Positions 2,595 to 63,908 of a DNA stretch of 64,000 bases are shown here, in pieces. Made by a program: the position numbers and the translations under genes. Origin of the DNA: a virus; the IMG/VR virus record IMGVR_UViG_3300047318_000369, positions 26,553 to 90,552 of that record, one strand, 5' to 3'. The notes under the pieces were generated by a model that saw only the letters and a program-made list of their open reading frames with translations, ran no database searches and was not told the origin of the DNA. How positions within the stretch are numbered: the stretch's first letter is position 1; each line of letters starts with the position of its first letter.

Positions 2595-2804
2595 CTAGCG
2601 GACGAGGCATGAGTTTTCCCGGCCGCGTTCTGCCAGACTGATGGTGCGATCGTCGTCTGCTCGTGGGAAACCCGAGCGCCCGGTGTCCCCGGGTCTTAGC
2701 CGACGGCGCAGTCTGGTCGGCACGCCGGTAAGGGCCAGGTACAGGAGCGTGAACACAATCCTGGCCACCAGCACACCGCCTGGCGCCAACCGGGCACGGG
2801 ACAT
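2595..2804 (-). CDS. Possible small membrane protein (69 aa)
   Basis: ATG at 2804 with an AAGGGAG-like ribosome site. One hydrophobic stretch (about residues 10-28) is followed by an Arg-rich tail. It lies 28 bases upstream of the gene at 2369-2566 in the same direction. Weak candidate; the frame could be fortuitous. Confidence 0.35.
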   Translation of the reverse strand: MSRARLAPGGVLVARIVFTLLYLALTGVPTRLRRRLRPGDTGRSGFPRADDDRTISLAERGRENSCLVR

Positions 2805-2821
2805 CTGCTGAGTGCTCCCTT

Positions 2822-2856
2822 GAACGCCCGGCCGGGCTGATACCGGCCGGGCGTTC
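2822..2856. terminator. Perfect 14-bp stem-loop terminator
   Basis: GAACGCCCGGCCGG at 2822-2835 is exactly complementary to 2843-2856, with a 7-base loop. It separates the leftward genes at 2987-3480 from those at 2369-2804 and probably ends transcription from the former. No long U-run is present, as is usual in Streptomyces. Confidence 0.7.
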
Positions 2857-2986
2857 GTGTGCGCCGGCTAGTACTCGCTGAGCCCCGCGTTGTCGGCGAC
2901 GCCCCGTAGCATGGCCAGCATCCATCTTTGGTGGCTATTCGAATGACGCCTCGTCCGGTACAGCGCCCGGGCGGGGCGTCGCGCTG

Positions 2987-3196
2987 TCAGCCCTCCCCGT
3001 GCCGCACGGCCTTCTTGAGCCCCATCTCGACGTCGATCCGCGCCACCGGGTTGCCCGCCTCTTTCGCCTGCTGGACGAACTCGTCGATGCCTTGATGCAC
3101 GGCCTGCGCGGTGTCGACGGTCAACGCTCCGGCCTGGATCTCCTCCCAGGCGCGGGCTTCGAGGGCGAGCAGGTCGGGAGGGAAGTCGATGGTCAC
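2987..3196 (-). CDS. Small conserved-looking helical protein (69 aa)
   Basis: GTG start at 3196. The 69-residue product is acidic and almost entirely helical in pattern, with no Cys and no membrane segment. It follows the gene at 3301-3480 in the same direction and is bounded downstream by the 2822-2856 terminator. Function unknown. Confidence 0.6.
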   Translation of the reverse strand: MTIDFPPDLLALEARAWEEIQAGALTVDTAQAVHQGIDEFVQQAKEAGNPVARIDVEMGLKKAVRHGEG

Positions 3197-3300
3197 CGGG
3201 GGATCCTACGTCGAACATGAAAGCGCCCCCGGGCACCACCCCGAGGGCATGTCGCGTGGACCCACCAGGGCGCCGTCAACCCTGCCAGCGTACCGGCGCC

Positions 3301-3480
3301 CTACGCCGCCTCGGTTACATCCCCGCGCTCGACCTGACGCAGCTCGGCCAGCAGCAGCCGGTACTTCTCCCGCTGCTCGTCCGTCAGCCGCGCATCCCGA
3401 TGCGTGAAAAGGGCACGGATCTCCTCGTTCACCACAGCGGCAGGGCGTAGAGAGCCCGGAGTGGGGGGAGGTGGGGGCAT
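3301..3480 (-). CDS. Very small helical protein (59 aa)
   Basis: An open frame from ATG 3480 to a TAG at 3301-3303. After a Pro-rich start, the product has the pattern VNEEIRALF...LTDEQREKYRLLLAELRQVE, an amphipathic helix pair typical of small proteins carried by Streptomyces elements. It is divergent from the gene at 3546, with 65 bases between them. Function unknown. Confidence 0.55.
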   Translation of the reverse strand: MPPPPPTPGSLRPAAVVNEEIRALFTHRDARLTDEQREKYRLLLAELRQVERGDVTEAA

Positions 3481-3545
3481 GGTCTGATCCTACCGAGGAC
3501 CACTGTCAGAGCGTCTGTTCGGGCGGCTCTGCCATGCTGTACGGC

Positions 3546-3758
3546 ATGAGCGCCGACACCTACAAGGCCCGCTACTGGCGGTACTCCAAGCGGTACGAGG
3601 AAGAGTGCCCCACGCTCGACGAGGCGGTCACCTTCCTCGCCTACGGCTGCATGGACACCGGCGCGTGCGCAGCGGCCGACGTCGTCAGCCCCGACGGAAC
3701 AGTCGTCCTGGAGGGCGAGGAACTGTTTCAGCGCATGTTCGCCCTACTCGACGACTGA
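3546..3758 (+). CDS. Small acidic protein, paralogue of the 54106-54330 product
   Basis: ATG 3546 gives 70 residues; ATG 3534 would add four. The product matches the protein at 54106-54330 in order and spacing: an ARYWRY/ARYYQY start, an acidic helix ending in FLAYG/FLAAG, then D-V-x-x-PDGTV and a final helix. Two copies 50 kb apart suggest an element-specific family. Its end overlaps the end of the convergent GntR gene by 15 bases. Confidence 0.65.
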   Translation: MSADTYKARYWRYSKRYEEECPTLDEAVTFLAYGCMDTGACAAADVVSPDGTVVLEGEELFQRMFALLDD

Positions 3759-4022
3759 TCCGCCCTCCGGCGGCTGTCGGGCGACGAACGATCCGAGCCC
3801 CGGTTCCGTGTAGATGAGCCCTTCGTCCCTCAGCCCGCCGTGCACCTTCTGCGCTGTCGCCTGGGCGATGCCGAACTCGGCACTCAACTGGATGACCGAG
3901 GGCACGCGCGTGCGGGGCGGATAGGTGCCATCGGCAATCCGCTGCCGGATCACCGCAGCTACCTGCTTCCACCTGGGCACATCCGCCTCGAATTCGATCA
4001 CACCGTCAACGTGACACGCCAT
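3744..4022 (-). CDS. GntR-family transcriptional regulator
   Basis: From ATG 4022 the protein is about 92 residues and is almost only a GntR winged helix-turn-helix: PRWKQVAAVIRQRI, then VPSVIQLSAEFGIAQATAQK, then the wing ending in GSFVAR. No effector domain follows, as in the compact GntR (KorSA-type) repressors of Streptomyces conjugative elements such as pSAM2. A perfect palindrome at 4058-4071 lies just upstream and is the likely self-controlled operator. Longer starts (4046, 4175) are possible but would cross the operator. Confidence 0.8.
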   Translation of the reverse strand: MACHVDGVIEFEADVPRWKQVAAVIRQRIADGTYPPRTRVPSVIQLSAEFGIAQATAQKVHGGLRDEGLIYTEPGLGSFVARQPPEGGSVVE

Positions 4023-56218: not shown

Positions 56219-56452
56219 ATGCGCCGCCCCGTCATCACCGCCCTGTTCGTCGCCGCGTTCCTTATCGGGCCCGTCGCCTGCACCCACGACGATCCGGCGT
56301 CCACGCCCAGTACGACGCGGCCGACGGCTACCAGGACGCCCACCGTGACGCCGAGCCCCTCGCGCACACCGACCGCGCCGCCAGCCAGTCCGACAACGGA
56401 CCCAAGCCCCAGCGAGTCGACGCCGGCGAGTTCACCGACCGGAGCGTCGTAG
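56219..56452 (+). CDS. Putative secreted, possibly lipid-anchored protein (77 aa)
   Basis: ATG 56219 behind GAGGAG. Basic start, hydrophobic helix (VITALFVAAFLIGPVAC) ending at a Cys at residue 21 that could be a lipoprotein site, though the -3 residue is Pro and the match is imperfect. The rest is a Thr/Ser/Pro-rich linker that should be extended and exposed. Confidence 0.6.
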   Translation: MRRPVITALFVAAFLIGPVACTHDDPASTPSTTRPTATRTPTVTPSPSRTPTAPPASPTTDPSPSESTPASSPTGAS

Positions 56453-56464
56453 GAGGCAAACCGC

Positions 56465-56614
56465 ATGCTCAACGTCCTCTGCTACACGGCCGGGCTCATC
56501 CTCCTGGTGCTCGCGGCCGTCCTCCCGGCGAACGTGCAGCGCGACCGCCTCGCCTACGCCGGGCTCGCGTTCTGGCTGCTGCCGACGACCGTGCATGCCT
56601 TGCAGAACCATTGA
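56465..56614 (+). CDS. Tiny membrane protein (49 aa)
   Basis: ATG 56465 behind TAGGAGG. Two short hydrophobic segments (LCYTAGLILLVLAAVL, then AYAGLAFWLLPTTVHAL). Unrecognised. A two-hairpin element follows. Confidence 0.55.
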   Translation: MLNVLCYTAGLILLVLAAVLPANVQRDRLAYAGLAFWLLPTTVHALQNH

Positions 56615-56631
56615 CCAACCCGCCCCATACG

Positions 56632-56686
56632 CCTGCGGCTTGATCACCGCAGGAAGGAAGCCCCGAGTTCCTGGCTCGGGGCTTCC
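56632..56686 (+). ncRNA. Two-hairpin leader element, copy 1
   Basis: Hairpin 1: CCTGCGG (56632-56638) with CCGCAGG (56647-56653). Hairpin 2: GGAAGCCCCGAG (56656-56667), loop TTCCTGG, CTCGGGGCTTCC (56675-56686). The loop bases TTCCTG can instead pair with CAGGAA (56650-56655), which would break both hairpins. A second copy at 60348-60403 keeps the loop and junction but changes stem pairs jointly. It ends 24 bases before the 56711 start. Confidence 0.65.
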
Positions 56687-56710
56687 GAACAACCAGGAAG
56701 GCCCGCACTC

Positions 56711-57085
56711 ATGACTCCGCCCGACAGCGAACCGATGGCCGCCGACGACCTCTGTGAACACTCCTGGTCGTACAACAAGCCAGCCCACGCCACGGCTTCA
56801 GTCCGCATCTGCTCCCTCTGTCACGCGATCGACGGCGAAGACCTCATGCGGACGCTTAACGAGTACGCGCAGGAGTACGCCAAGCTGTACAGCCCGAAGC
56901 CCGTCAGCCTCATCTATGGGCACTCCGACGGGCAGACGATCAGCGTTGTGGATCAGGACGGCGGCATGCCGAAGGCTCCCCGCGAACGGGCCCTGCTTCG
57001 CGCGCTGCTCATCCACACCCTGCGGGCAGTCGACGAGCGCGACCATCCACTGCGGCTCGTCAGCCTCCCCGCCGACCCGCACTGA
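56711..57085 (+). CDS. Hypothetical protein (124 aa) downstream of leader element 1
   Basis: ATG 56711 behind AGGAAGG. CEHSWSYNKPAHATASVRIC then SLCHA suggests a zinc knuckle at the start; then helices. Its leader carries the two-hairpin element, so its expression may be RNA-controlled. Ends exactly where the convergent 57086 gene ends. Unrecognised. Confidence 0.6.
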   Translation: MTPPDSEPMAADDLCEHSWSYNKPAHATASVRICSLCHAIDGEDLMRTLNEYAQEYAKLYSPKPVSLIYGHSDGQTISVVDQDGGMPKAPRERALLRALLIHTLRAVDERDHPLRLVSLPADPH

Positions 57086-57583
57086 TCAACTGCCGAGCGA
57101 TGCCGCGAACTCCCCGGCCTTCGCCTCGGCTGCCGTCACCGTGATCTGCCCCCGGTGGCTCACCTCGACCCGGTAGAACTTCGAGCCGCCCGGAACATCC
57201 GGCACCCGCACCGGGAACACGCACGCCGCCGCCTTCGGCTTCCCCGTGCCGAGCGCGCCGGTTGCCACGACCTTCCCCGCCGAGTCGTACACCGTCACGC
57301 TCGCACCCGCCGCAATGTCCTCGTAGCCGCTGTACCCGGTGCAGTCCTCGGACGTGTCGCCGACCGGCACGTTGTCACCCGTCAACGTGATCACGCCGGT
57401 GAGCGTGAACGGCTTCGGGGCGGATGAGCCGCCGCCCGACAGGCCCCACGCCAGGCCCACGGCGCACGCACCAACAGCGAGACCAGCAAGGCCAGTTACC
57501 AGCGGATGAGGCCAACGCCCCGCCTTCACAGGCGGCGTCACGGGAATCGGCGGGGTGGCAGGCATATCGGTCGCATCAGACAT
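57086..57583 (-). CDS. Membrane-anchored extracytoplasmic protein (165 aa)
   Basis: ATG 57583. A Pro-rich cytoplasmic start, one membrane helix (about 28-48, VTGLAGLAVGACAVGLAWGL), then a Gly/Thr-rich beta domain with two Cys (EDCTGYSGYEDI and AACVFPV) that may form a disulphide outside the cell. Looks like an exposed surface protein. It is the only leftward gene between 50.1 kb and the right window edge. Confidence 0.65.
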   Translation of the reverse strand: MSDATDMPATPPIPVTPPVKAGRWPHPLVTGLAGLAVGACAVGLAWGLSGGGSSAPKPFTLTGVITLTGDNVPVGDTSEDCTGYSGYEDIAAGASVTVYDSAGKVVATGALGTGKPKAAACVFPVRVPDVPGGSKFYRVEVSHRGQITVTAAEAKAGEFAASLGS

Positions 57584-57674
57584 GCGCCGAATCATGACAG
57601 CGCCAACACCCGGCGTACACGCCAACGGCCAGACCGAACCCGCGCCACGCGGCGCACAACCCGAAGGAGGCCGC

Positions 57675-57806
57675 GTGGCCGACGAACACGTCATCACCCT
57701 GGCCATCGAGGCGTCGGGTGAAGTCACGCCCGCACCCACCACGGAACAGGCAGGCACCAACGAGGCCGAGCCTCGCGACGACGAGGAAGGCATGACCGAT
57801 GGCTGA
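57675..57806 (+). CDS. Small acidic protein before the fibre genes (43 aa)
   Basis: GTG 57675 has a strong AAGGAGG site; the open frame from 57555 lacks one. Acidic, disordered tail. Its end overlaps the next start (57799), so it is coupled to the fibre-like pair. Confidence 0.52.
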   Translation: MADEHVITLAIEASGEVTPAPTTEQAGTNEAEPRDDEEGMTDG

Positions 57807-58197
57807 AGGCCTGTCCACGACGCTGGTGTCCAACTGGCTCAATACCTTGCGTGCTGCGGGCGCGGCTTTCGGCCCGGTCGCCGCCGAGTACGCGCAGCTC
57901 CACACCGCCAACCCGGGTGCGGCCGGCACCACCGCCATCTCCGCTGGCTCCGCGACCCGCGTCATCTTCACGCACGCCGCGTCGTCCGCCGGCTCGGCGC
58001 TCGCGCTCACCGGCACCAACCCGGCGTGGACCAACGGCGGGACGAGCGAAACGATCACGGACATCTCCGTGTGGACCGCGGTGACCGGCGGCACCTTCCT
58101 GTACTCGGTGCAGCTCACCGCCTCGAAGGCGTGGGCGTCCGCCGACACCTTCACGCTGACGAGCCATTCCGTCTCGCTAAGCCCACAGGCGGCCTGA
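57799..58197 (+). CDS. Tail-fibre-like protein (132 aa)
   Basis: ATG 57799. LSTTLVSNWLNTLRAAGAAF ... YAQLHTANPGAAGTT ... ISVWTAVTGGTFLYS ... TLTSHSVSLS follows a small beta protein that annotators of actinophages often call tail fibre. It sits directly before the repeat-rich protein, as the base of a fibre might. Virion role not proven, since no capsid gene is in view. Confidence 0.7.
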   Translation: MAEGLSTTLVSNWLNTLRAAGAAFGPVAAEYAQLHTANPGAAGTTAISAGSATRVIFTHAASSAGSALALTGTNPAWTNGGTSETITDISVWTAVTGGTFLYSVQLTASKAWASADTFTLTSHSVSLSPQAA

Positions 58198-58217
58198 CCC
58201 CCTGACGGGGAGGACTC

Positions 58218-59723
58218 ATGACGTCCTTCGCCGATGACTTCAACCGGGCCAACGGCGCTCCAGGGTCCGGGTGGGTAGATGCGACCGGCCTCTGGACCAT
58301 CGTCTCCAACCAGCTCTCCTCGGGAAGCGCCGGCGGCACGATCATCATTCGTGCCGCCACGGCGATGGCCACCTCGGATAACTCGGCGCAGATCACCATC
58401 GCCGCCACCGGGGCCGTCTCCCACGGCGTGTTCTGCCGCGCCAACACCGGTTCCGGCTTCACCAGCGGCTATCTGTGGCGCAACGATGGCACCTCGTGGA
58501 ACTTGTTCTCGAACGTCGGCAGCTCGTTCACCTCCCTGGGCTCCTTTGCCGGGGCAGCCGTAGCGGGAGACGTCGCCAAGATCACGGCTGTCGGCAGCAC
58601 CATCACGGGCTACGTAAACGGCGTCGCGCGCGTAACGGTCACCAACACGGCCGTCACCACCGGAACCGGCCTAGGCCTTCGCGCCGAGTCGTCGAACGTG
58701 CTCCGATTCGACGATTTCGCCGGGGCAGACGTCACATCCGGCACCACAGGCGACGCGGCGCTGTCCGGCACCGCAACACTGACTGCGGCCGGCCTGCGCG
58801 CCACAACCGGCGGCGGTGCACAGGCGGCGACAGCCAGCCTGACCGCCGGAGGGGTCCGGGCAACTGCCGGCGGCGCAACCGTGGCCCCCACCGCCACCCT
58901 CACAGCCGGCGGCCTGCGGGCCACAGCCGGGGACGCGGGCCTGTCATCCTCGGCGAGTCTGACGGCCGACGGTACTCGTGCCGCGTCCGGGGCAGCGAGC
59001 CTTGCTGCGACGGGGTCCCTGGCCGCCAGCGGTTTCCTCGGCGCCACCGCATCCAGCAGCACGACGGCCACCGCCAGCCTGACCGCAGCCGGACAGGTGG
59101 ACCACCCGGCGCAGGCCGCACTCGCCGCCTCGGCCGGGCTCGCCGCGAGCGGAACACGCGCCACCCAGGCAGACGCGGGGCTTCCCGCCACAGCAGGTCT
59201 GACCGCTACCGGGCAGACGGCGACCGTCGGCGACACCACCCTCACCGCCGCGGCGGTCATCACGGCGACCGGACAGCGAGGCGCCCTCGCCGACGCAGCA
59301 CTCGCCGCTACCGCCGGCCTGGCCGCGCAGGGACAGGTCGCGTACAGCGCCGCCGCCGCCCTGGCAATAGCAGCCACGCTCACGGCTGGAGGAGTCACAG
59401 GCGCGGCTCCCGTGCTCGGCGACGCCGCCCTGAACGCGACGGGCACCCTCACTGCGGCAGGCGCCCGCACGACGGCAGCGGGGGCTGGTCTCAACGCCGC
59501 CGCGACACTCGCAGCAGCAGGGAACAAGGCAACCGCCGGAGCTGCGGCCACCGCCGTCACGGCCATCCTCGCCGCCAGCGGGACCCTGATCTCCACCCGC
59601 GACGACATCGACGTCACCGTCGGCGCCCCCTACAGCCCGTGGTCCGTCGGTGCTCCGCAGCGTGAGACGTGGCCCGTGGCCGAACCGAAGCCCGCACCCT
59701 GGCTCGTCGGCCAACCCCAGTGA
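58218..59723 (+). CDS. Repeat-rich fibre-like protein (501 aa; 14 repeats of 20 residues)
   Basis: ATG 58218 behind GGGGAGG. Residues 1-175 form a lectin/LamG-like beta domain (SFADDFNRANGAPGSGWVDA). Residues about 180-462 hold 14 successive units of 20 residues (one of 23), consensus AALxATAxLTAxGxRATAGD, strongly Ala/Thr/Gly-rich, likely an elongated beta rod. The last 40 residues (SPWSVGAPQRE ... PAPWLVGQPQ) are separate. Resembles a phage fibre or surface adhesin. Confidence 0.78.
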   Translation: MTSFADDFNRANGAPGSGWVDATGLWTIVSNQLSSGSAGGTIIIRAATAMATSDNSAQITIAATGAVSHGVFCRANTGSGFTSGYLWRNDGTSWNLFSNVGSSFTSLGSFAGAAVAGDVAKITAVGSTITGYVNGVARVTVTNTAVTTGTGLGLRAESSNVLRFDDFAGADVTSGTTGDAALSGTATLTAAGLRATTGGGAQAATASLTAGGVRATAGGATVAPTATLTAGGLRATAGDAGLSSSASLTADGTRAASGAASLAATGSLAASGFLGATASSSTTATASLTAAGQVDHPAQAALAASAGLAASGTRATQADAGLPATAGLTATGQTATVGDTTLTAAAVITATGQRGALADAALAATAGLAAQGQVAYSAAAALAIAATLTAGGVTGAAPVLGDAALNATGTLTAAGARTTAAGAGLNAAATLAAAGNKATAGAAATAVTAILAASGTLISTRDDIDVTVGAPYSPWSVGAPQRETWPVAEPKPAPWLVGQPQ

Positions 59724-59734
59724 AGGCGGTGGAC

Positions 59735-60034
59735 ATGCAACTTCCCGCCACCACCACCGAGTTCATTCACGTCCCCGTCACCCCGCCGGTCGGAGTCGAC
59801 GTCACCGGCATCCCGCCCAAGCTGGCGATCCTGCCCGTGAGCAACCGGGCCAACCCGACAGTTGGCGACTGGATGACCGGGACGTGGGGCGCCGGACCGG
59901 AAGCGCTACTCCTCGTCGGGCCCGACGCGGGCGCGGTCACCCTGACCGTCGGCGACTACCGGGTCTACGTCAGCTTCGATCCGCCCGGCAGCGAAAACAT
60001 CGTCCGCCAGTCCGGCTACCTCAGCATCACCTGA
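59735..60034 (+). CDS. Small beta protein after the fibre genes (99 aa)
   Basis: ATG 59735 behind AAGGCGG (a GTG at 59720 overlapping the prior stop is the alternative). Beta-rich (VGVDVTGIPPKLAILPVSN ... AVTLTVGDYRVYVSF), similar in type to small virion or adaptor proteins of phage tails. No exact family recognised. Confidence 0.6.
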   Translation: MQLPATTTEFIHVPVTPPVGVDVTGIPPKLAILPVSNRANPTVGDWMTGTWGAGPEALLLVGPDAGAVTLTVGDYRVYVSFDPPGSENIVRQSGYLSIT

Positions 60035-60049
60035 ACGGAGACCAGAACC

Positions 60050-60328
60050 GTGGCCACCCCGAGCGTCGGCATGACCGTGCACTACGTCAGCTACGGCACC
60101 CCCGGCGGCGAGTACACCTCACAGTGCCGGGCCGCCATCGTCACCGCAGTCCCTGACATCCTCACCGACGGCCTCTACGGCAAGGTCCCCGACGCGCACC
60201 TGTGCGTGCTCAACCCGGAGGGCTTCTTCTTCAACAAGAACGTGATCTACGACGAGCCGCAGCTCGATGAGCACGGCCACCCGGGACTGCGCGGCGGCAC
60301 CTGGCACTGGCCCGAGCGCAGCGAGTAG
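60050..60328 (+). CDS. Small phage-type protein (92 aa)
   Basis: GTG 60050 behind CGGAG. VGMTVHYVSYGTPGGEYTSQ then CRAAIVTAVP and VCVLNPEGFFFN-like text marks a beta domain seen in many actinophage accessory proteins. Function unknown. Followed by the second two-hairpin element. Confidence 0.63.
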   Translation: MATPSVGMTVHYVSYGTPGGEYTSQCRAAIVTAVPDILTDGLYGKVPDAHLCVLNPEGFFFNKNVIYDEPQLDEHGHPGLRGGTWHWPERSE

Positions 60329-60347
60329 ACGGCACCCCCCCATCACG

Positions 60348-60403
60348 CCTGCGGCCAGCTACCGCAGGAAGGAAACCCCGGCGTTCCTGGCGCCGGGGTT
60401 TCC
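60348..60403 (+). ncRNA. Two-hairpin leader element, copy 2
   Basis: Hairpin 1: CCTGCGG (60348-60354) with CCGCAGG (60362-60368). Hairpin 2: GGAAACCCCGGCG (60371-60383), loop TTCCTGG, CGCCGGGGTTTCC (60391-60403). Alternative pair CAGGAA (60365-60370) with TTCCTG (60384-60389). Compared with 56632-56686, a G-C pair became A-T and the stem top changed on both sides together. Ends 19 bases before the 60423 start. Confidence 0.65.
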
Positions 60404-60422
60404 GCACACCCAGGAGACGAAC

Positions 60423-61115
60423 ATGGCCCGCTTGCAGATCCTCCAACTCCCCGCAGGTGCCGGAGACGACCGGCCGCCGTTCGTGCTCGTCGTCGACGAG
60501 ACCGTGCCCCAGCGAGTCGCACTCGGCCCGGACACCCCGTTCCGCGACTACTGGGAAGAACTCGCCCTACAAATCGGGGCGCGAGGCGTCATCGTCACCC
60601 CTGAGACCGTCGACATCCCCGCGAACGAACTGCTTCCGGGCTCGACGGGCGCGCGCGTCTACCTAGGCGACATGGAAGTCGGCAGCGTCAGCAGTACCGA
60701 CTCCACCGACCGGGCGACGGAAGCCGAGTCCAGGCTGAAGGCCCTGGCTGGCGAATATGCCGCGCTTCAGGAGCAGCTCAACGACGCCCGCATGTGGGCC
60801 CGGCATGGCTACGAGATCGGGCAACGCCACTGCGGATGGTCGGACCACGGCGTCGCACCCGACTGGCTCACCGAAGGCTGGCCGTACAGTTTCGACTCCT
60901 GCGAACACCTGAAGCAGGCTGCGGAGTACGACGAAGCGCTGACTCGGGTACGCGGCCTACATCGACCCGTCGAGCATCACGGGCAGACCATCTGTGCGGA
61001 ATGCTCCGGTTATGGAGGGCAGAGCACCGACAACGCGCCTGTCGCCCACGACAAGTGCGGCACACTCCGAGCGCTCACCGTGGATAGTGCAGACGAGCCG
61101 ACGGTAAAGCCGTGA
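60423..61115 (+). CDS. Hypothetical protein (230 aa) downstream of leader element 2
   Basis: ATG 60423 behind CAGGAGA. N-terminal beta region (ARLQILQLPAGAGDDRPPFV), a helix (LKALAGEYAALQEQLNDARM), and a late CAECSGYGG ... CGTL zinc-knuckle-like part. No family recognised. Its leader has the conserved hairpin element. Confidence 0.6.
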   Translation: MARLQILQLPAGAGDDRPPFVLVVDETVPQRVALGPDTPFRDYWEELALQIGARGVIVTPETVDIPANELLPGSTGARVYLGDMEVGSVSSTDSTDRATEAESRLKALAGEYAALQEQLNDARMWARHGYEIGQRHCGWSDHGVAPDWLTEGWPYSFDSCEHLKQAAEYDEALTRVRGLHRPVEHHGQTICAECSGYGGQSTDNAPVAHDKCGTLRALTVDSADEPTVKP

Positions 61116-63122: not shown

Positions 63123-63908
63123 GTGCGTCAACACTCCCGGGGCGTGGCCGAACCTGATGAGAGGTACGACTTGCAGAACGATAGCAAGTGTCTCGCGTGC
63201 GAAGCTCTGCTCCCTGCGAGCAGAGGCAGCCGCCCGCGACGGTGGTGTTCCGACAAATGCCGTAGCTGGGCTCGACTCAATCCCGGGAAGAAGCGACCGT
63301 CGGGCCGGGTGTGTCGAGGGTGTGGCGTCGGCATCGACCACTTGATCACCAAGGCGATCTACTGCACCCAGGCGTGTGGCCAACGGCTGCGCGACACGGA
63401 TGCCAAGGTCCAGCTCCCGACGCGCCCGTGCAGGCAGTGCGGCAGATCGTTCCAGCCTTTCCGGTCCAACAGCTCGTGCTGTTCGGATAGGCACTACAGG
63501 ACGTGGCGCCAGAAGCAGTGGAGCGCAGCGAACCCGAAACTCGTCAGGCTTAGGCGCGCCGAACTCCGCGCTCGAATGACAGAAGAGCAGCGACTCAGGG
63601 AACGGGCGCGACAGCGACTCCTCGCCCAAGTTCGCCGAGCGCAGAAGAAACTCTCGCTGCACTTGCGCTTCACTGACGTGCAACTGGCTCAACGGATGGC
63701 GATGTTCGCTGGCTGCTGGATGTGTGGCGGCCCGTTTGAGCACATTGATCACGTGAAGCCGTTGGCCGCTGGCGGCCCACACATCCTCGCGAACCTTCGG
63801 CCGGCCTGCGCTCCGTGCAACCTGAGCAAGGGGAGTCAGTGGCCGCTGCGGTCGCCGCTGATCATGGCTGGTCGGCGAGTCAGGGATGAGCCCGCAGCAG
63901 CCCTCTAG
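63123..63908 (+). CDS. HNH endonuclease with multiple zinc knuckles (261 aa)
   Basis: GTG 63123 gives 261 residues; TTG 63171 after GAGAGG is an alternative. Repeated Cys knuckles (CLACEALL ... CSDKC; CRGCGVG ... CTQAC; CRQCGRSFQ ... CCSDRHY) precede a basic helical part (TEEQRLRERARQRLLAQVRR) and an HNH core: GCWMCGGPFEHIDHVKPLAA then NLRPACAPCNLSKGS. A free-standing nuclease, perhaps a homing enzyme. The last 90 bases of the window hold no gene, only a short G/C hairpin near 63950. Confidence 0.85.
   Translation: MRQHSRGVAEPDERYDLQNDSKCLACEALLPASRGSRPRRWCSDKCRSWARLNPGKKRPSGRVCRGCGVGIDHLITKAIYCTQACGQRLRDTDAKVQLPTRPCRQCGRSFQPFRSNSSCCSDRHYRTWRQKQWSAANPKLVRLRRAELRARMTEEQRLRERARQRLLAQVRRAQKKLSLHLRFTDVQLAQRMAMFAGCWMCGGPFEHIDHVKPLAAGGPHILANLRPACAPCNLSKGSQWPLRSPLIMAGRRVRDEPAAAL

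Follow-up and report, generated by a model that had tools for sequence, protein, structure and literature searches.

The window analysed here comprises 64,000 nucleotides of a 90,552-base virus contig, in which a covariance model recovers only two full copies of a two-hairpin leader. They lie at 56632-56686 (copy 1) and 60348-60403 (copy 2) of the window, on the plus strand like the window ORFs given below. Direct reading of the sequence confirmed the layout and coordinates reported by a first-pass annotation, and both copies fold as it had claimed, with z-scores of -6.5 (copy 1) and -5.7 (copy 2) against dinucleotide shuffles. In copy 1, hairpin 1 (CCTGCGG-CTTGATCA-CCGCAGG, 56632-56653) has its arms at 56632-56638 and 56647-56653 and its loop at 56639-56646, and is followed by the junction AA (56654-56655) and by hairpin 2 (56656-56686), in which a 12-bp stem GGAAGCCCCGAG/CTCGGGGCTTCC (56656-56667 and 56675-56686) encloses the putative anti-Shine-Dalgarno loop TTCCTGG (56668-56674). 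Copy 2 has the same order, with hairpin 1 (CCTGCGG-CCAGCTA-CCGCAGG, 60348-60368; loop 60355-60361), the junction AA (60369-60370) and hairpin 2 (60371-60403), a 13-bp stem GGAAACCCCGGCG/CGCCGGGGTTTCC (60371-60383 and 60391-60403) around a second TTCCTGG loop (60384-60390). The stems of both hairpins covary across the family described below, as does loop 2 with its partner. Exact matches to a 13-base core, CCGCAGGAAGGAA, occur at these two places only in the window.

Each leader ends shortly before a start codon, at distances of 24 (copy 1) and 19 bases (copy 2), as the first pass had it. What it missed is that loop 2 also complements the sequence directly before each of these start codons. In copy 1 the complementary segment CCAGGAA (56693-56699) overlaps the Shine-Dalgarno (SD) sequence AGGAAGG (56695-56701), and in copy 2 the segment CCAGGA (60410-60415) overlaps the SD AGGAG. 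The ORF behind copy 1 starts at ATG 56711 and encodes 124 aa (56711-57085), and that behind copy 2 starts at ATG 60423 and encodes 230 aa (60423-61115); neither product has a Pfam or PHROG match. A structure prediction for the former was too poor for use (pLDDT 48), and relatives of the latter combine a conserved N-terminus with a mosaic C-terminus. Upstream of copy 2, a phrog_2293 gene (60050-60328) ends with its stop codon 19 nt before hairpin 1. A scan limited to T-tract terminators found none in 56400-60500, and a scan for sigma-70-like promoters, a class that does not include phage-specific ones, returned none in the leader region. Elsewhere in the window, the 501-aa product of an ORF (58218-59723) resembles a virion structural protein (phrog_2804) at its N-terminus and then continues into a long stretch of imperfect repeats rich in Ala, Gly and Thr, and an HNH endonuclease ORF near the window end (63123-63908; Pfam HNH, E 1.9e-9) has no leader.

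The leader family and the genes behind it

Relatives of the leader were gathered by pattern scans of viral contigs, with one scan of genome contigs, and then by covariance models R1 and R2, whose E-values are rough. The family comprises ~60 true copies, found in viruses of actinobacteria, in Streptomyces genomes and in cultured mycobacteriophages of cluster F1. The covariation search suggested by the first-pass annotation might have returned only ordinary terminators with variable loops; it instead recovered, in actinobacterial phages and Streptomyces genomes, a structured family whose loops track the downstream SD and from which true terminators are separable. Within the genus of Streptomyces sp. 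NBC_01549, 10 of 393 genomes match at a score of at least 57 bits (12 copies), and a few further copies occur in other genomes of the same class. About 36 records of cultured Mycobacterium phages, labelled Cheoctovirus in the records themselves and which we take to be cluster F1, carry the leader before an annotated HNH endonuclease (Shauna1 gp107). A direct blastn search of copy 1 against cultured phages gave no match, and consensus queries were needed. The RNA family is previously uncatalogued: the window and eight relatives have sub-threshold matches only in Rfam 15, none exceeding the gathering threshold, and the openly licensed PMC literature contains no description of this leader (subscription journals may hold one).

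Weak model matches in Streptomyces proved to be ordinary terminator-like hairpins, as did matches in the cultured phages Heather, Galactica, TPA4, Schnabeltier, Halsey and vB_MoxS-R1, and the Streptomyces phages Naboo and Tomas have a terminator-like hairpin only. In an assembly from the negative-control phylum, a possible distant copy (L159:1501-1592; 33 bits, 6-bp loop:SD pairing by eye) adjoins a HigBA-like pair.

Across 57 model-aligned sequences, 15 of the 18 stem pairs change on both sides and 98.5% of cells pair, in an alignment that leans towards the covariance model that made it. A MAFFT alignment of 35 sequences gave both-side changes in 19 of 24 pairs, including six loop:SD columns, compared with 2-8 in slid controls. 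Cluster-F1 copies provide a compensated replacement in the lower stem of hairpin 2, where GAGCAG/CTGCTC stands in place of GGAAG/CTTCC. These alignments establish a two-hairpin RNA with covarying stems, and they support the earlier proposal of a structured, riboregulator-like, cis-acting leader RNA with compensatory changes, located near start codons in actinobacterial phages.

Without exception the leader is sense to its gene and stands immediately ahead of the start codon. Measured from the closest stop codon upstream, hairpin 1 begins after a median of 17 nt, a gap that a ribosome terminating there would just fail to bridge with its footprint. Grouped by detectable similarity, the ORFs behind the leader form 18 families and those ahead of it form 30. 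Nuclease domains of the homing-endonuclease type (HNH, endonuclease VII or T5orf172) were identified with Pfam in 22 of the 50 downstream proteins tested, neither of the window cargos among them, and two of the 50 are HTH regulators. One cargo resembles a phage glycosyltransferase (PHROGs) and another (L013:4151-4531, minus strand) is Tad3, which inhibits type I Thoeris defence (Pfam PF25185, E 1.6e-31), given which the leader may mark other anti-defence genes. Most other cargo proteins have no assigned function, including both in the window. In one actinobacterial genome (L156:1591 onwards, plus strand) a leader stands directly before a 500-aa ORF that appears terminase large subunit-like by eye.

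Leader and gene also behave as a cassette. A segment of L168 (~2793-3774) comprising leader and ORF is absent as a unit from L169 and L170, which are otherwise ~90% identical. In the window and in L003 the leaders are 98% identical and the flank after the cargo is common to both, with different genes between and homology resuming at window position 57083. An empty site and the same leader with a different gene thus show a portable leader-gene unit. Among relatives of the gene upstream of copy 2, a strong leader match was present within the fetched flanks of 4 of 80 viral loci.

Covariation of loop 2 with the Shine-Dalgarno region

A switch between alternative folds had been proposed, in which the loop TTCCTG would pair with CAGGAA at the end of hairpin 1. 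That pairing is not conserved: complementarity averages 4.33 within copies versus 4.32 when partners are swapped, and the CAGGAA segment in relatives varies with stem 1, not with loop 2. The conserved pairing, as read from the collected copies, is that of the hairpin-2 loop with the SD region just before the start codon. For 33 distinct copies, loop and own SD region share a mean of 7.5 bp versus 4.9 bp for swapped partners (0 of 20,000 permutations), and 20 further copies unused in building R1 gave 8.1 versus 5.0 bp (0 of 20,000). Weak model matches representing ordinary terminators served as a control, with own and swapped values of 4.76 and 4.65, respectively (7175 of 20,000 permutations). 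By this measure, loop:SD complementarity is demonstrably maintained within each copy.

The claim that loop 2 is identical between copies holds for the window pair (TTCCTGG twice) and fails for the family, in which the loop varies (TTCCTGG, CCAGAGATG, CCCGAGAG, GTCCTCAAG and others) and its SD-side partner varies along with it. Loop and partner read TTCCTGG/CCAGGAA in window copy 1, GTCTCCTGG/CCAGGAGAC in L010, CCAGAGATG/CATCTCTGG in L001, CCCGAGAG/CTCTCGGG in L004, TCTCCAGG/CCTGGAGA in Shauna1, GTCCTCAAG/CTTGAGGAC in L128 and TCCTCTAG/CTAGAGGA in L154, and where one genome has several copies, each fits its SD with a sequence of its own (L053, L056/L121). Copies that are related count as only partly independent, but at least eight different loop sequences occur with matching partners. 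The match is not a model-fitting artefact, because R1 and R2 do not model loop:SD pairing. Poorly paired copies are few, namely L148 (5 bp) and the apparently decayed L049:4389-4472 and L157:1501-1586. Of the latter two, L049 has both hairpins with no matching SD or ORF, whereas in L157 the pairing is disrupted and the cargo is short (75 aa). Mycobacteriophage Aubs (L068:701-760) has kept hairpin 1 and is missing hairpin 2, and also appears to carry a decaying copy.

Our main reading, to which we assign a probability of roughly 0.7, is that the leader is a portable cis-acting element in which an anti-SD apical-loop pseudoknot would lock the translation of accessory (cargo) genes in actinobacterial phages. 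The two hairpins would form in the mRNA ~17 nt after the stop codon of the upstream gene, with the apical loop of hairpin 2 presenting an anti-SD sequence tailored to the SD of the cargo gene behind it. That SD follows hairpin 2 at the end of a short linker, usually of 6 nt, and would pair with loop 2 (5-10 bp in nearly all copies); we infer from the maintained complementarity that this apical-loop pseudoknot forms in the cell, where it would hide the SD from the 30S subunit and repress cargo translation. Hairpin 1, which a ribosome halted at the end of the upstream gene would not quite reach, probably insulates hairpin 2 from that ribosome. Overall, cargo placed in a foreign operon would be translated at a low level, late or only under certain conditions. 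The pseudoknot may be strained because the usual 6-nt linker must span a stem of 12-15 bp, a strain that could ease if stem 2 opened at its GGAA/TTCC base.

A palindromic tetramer (GATC, AGCT, CGCG or GCGC) is present in all 24 distinct hairpin-1 loop segments, against a shuffled expectation of 9.5 and a maximum of 19. These loops are related, and we treat the palindromes as a lead rather than a result because independent loop types number only ~4 or 5. Palindromic loops could allow loop-loop dimers. It is a long shot that the lock keeps acquired genes (homing endonucleases, anti-defence proteins, regulators) silent until late infection, with hairpin-1 loop-loop dimers between transcripts sensing transcript abundance. 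The segment CCTGCGGCTTGATCACC, which by eye looked like a mimic of the 16S 3' end, was dropped since relatives differ in loop 1 and stem 1. ANTAR target RNAs have two hairpins with hexaloops carrying A1 and G4; the present leader, with YTGATC or YAGCTA as loop 1 and a loop 2 that changes along with the SD, departs from that definition.

Alternative readings and known systems

Covariation of loop and SD is silent on whether translation would fall or rise. The pseudoknot might instead be an activator that presents the start region, keeps a competing fold from forming or shields the 5' end of the mRNA, with a precedent in the pseudoknot that is essential for timP translation (PMC11228461). Judged by sequence only, however, the pairing takes in bases of the SD in 55 of 56 copies, and the bare loop:SD duplex, the energy of which takes no account of loop strain, is stronger than SD:16S in 53 of 56 (-14.5 versus -8.5 kcal/mol); this favours repression, and we consider activation unlikely. 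Alternatively, hairpin 2 might chiefly terminate or attenuate transcription and so insulate the cargo from the operon, in which case loop:SD pairing would act as a second lock on read-through transcripts. Such a role draws on the ordinary Streptomyces terminators among the weak model matches, which have the same stem sequence and 3' flank, GGAAGGCCC...GGGCCTTCCGCATGTCC (L131-L143, L145 and L147), and because of this likeness hairpin 2 may descend from a terminator. Those terminators, however, have neither hairpin 1 nor loop:SD pairing, do not stand before a start codon and lack loop:SD covariation, and in the leader no T-tract follows the stem and the 19-24 nt to the start codon are too few for a new promoter. 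A mainly terminating role is quite improbable, and of the attenuator or riboregulator initially suggested, a riboregulator-like leader is supported, whereas nothing found requires transcription attenuation.

The near-perfect DNA palindrome of hairpin 1, with its palindromic tetramer in every distinct loop, would also suit a site acting at the DNA level, either as protein-bound inverted repeats or as a recombination joint for cargo swapping, and nearly identical leaders flanking different cargo may also aid recombination. Yet the stem sequences change with pairing kept, which would be ruinous to a sequence-specific site, the orientation is always sense to the gene and loop:SD covariation needs RNA, leaving a DNA-level function very improbable.

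The SD lock that we favour most closely resembles the mRNA structures of T4-like phages that hide the RBS of the homing endonuclease genes I-TevI, I-TevII, I-TevIII, segB and mobE (PMC2988022); it too is a phage mRNA structure that would hide the SD of genes, many of homing-endonuclease type, on long polycistronic transcripts. In T4-like phages the SD is part of a stem particular to each gene, and transcription from a late promoter yields an mRNA free of the structure (PMC2988022), whereas the actinophage leader is a conserved two-hairpin family in which the apical loop would pair with the SD before 18 unrelated gene families, with no sigma-70-like promoter found. Cluster K mycobacteriophages carry SAS and ESAS, elements that are also repeated at translation starts of unrelated genes in actinobacteriophages, ESAS having inverted repeats upstream (PMC3203893). 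SAS is a fixed 13-bp sequence, and its authors saw little support for ESAS hairpins in mRNA (PMC3203893); in the leader, by contrast, pairing persists through sequence change. The only match in the window to the SAS sequence GGGATAGGAGCCC, which is found at start codons, has 2 mismatches and lies on the other strand; chance alone would give more. The enterobacterial type I toxin mRNA timP shares a 5'-region pseudoknot controlling translation, but there it activates and joins two upstream stem-loops, and it is not part of a phage cassette family (PMC11228461).

The leader precedes many unrelated accessory genes in phages of soil bacteria and probably keeps their translation low or delayed. It is testable now because the ~36 cultured cluster-F1 mycobacteriophage records carry it. 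If the proposed lock is true, the leader would be a sequence tag for unknown accessory and anti-defence genes, one copy lying before an anti-Thoeris gene, and a compact design for expression tuning in Streptomyces and mycobacteria. Actinobacterial phages would then have in common a small RNA module for taming newly inserted genes via a loop matched to each gene's own RBS, and this would account for the insertion of homing endonucleases and other cargo into operons without harmful expression.
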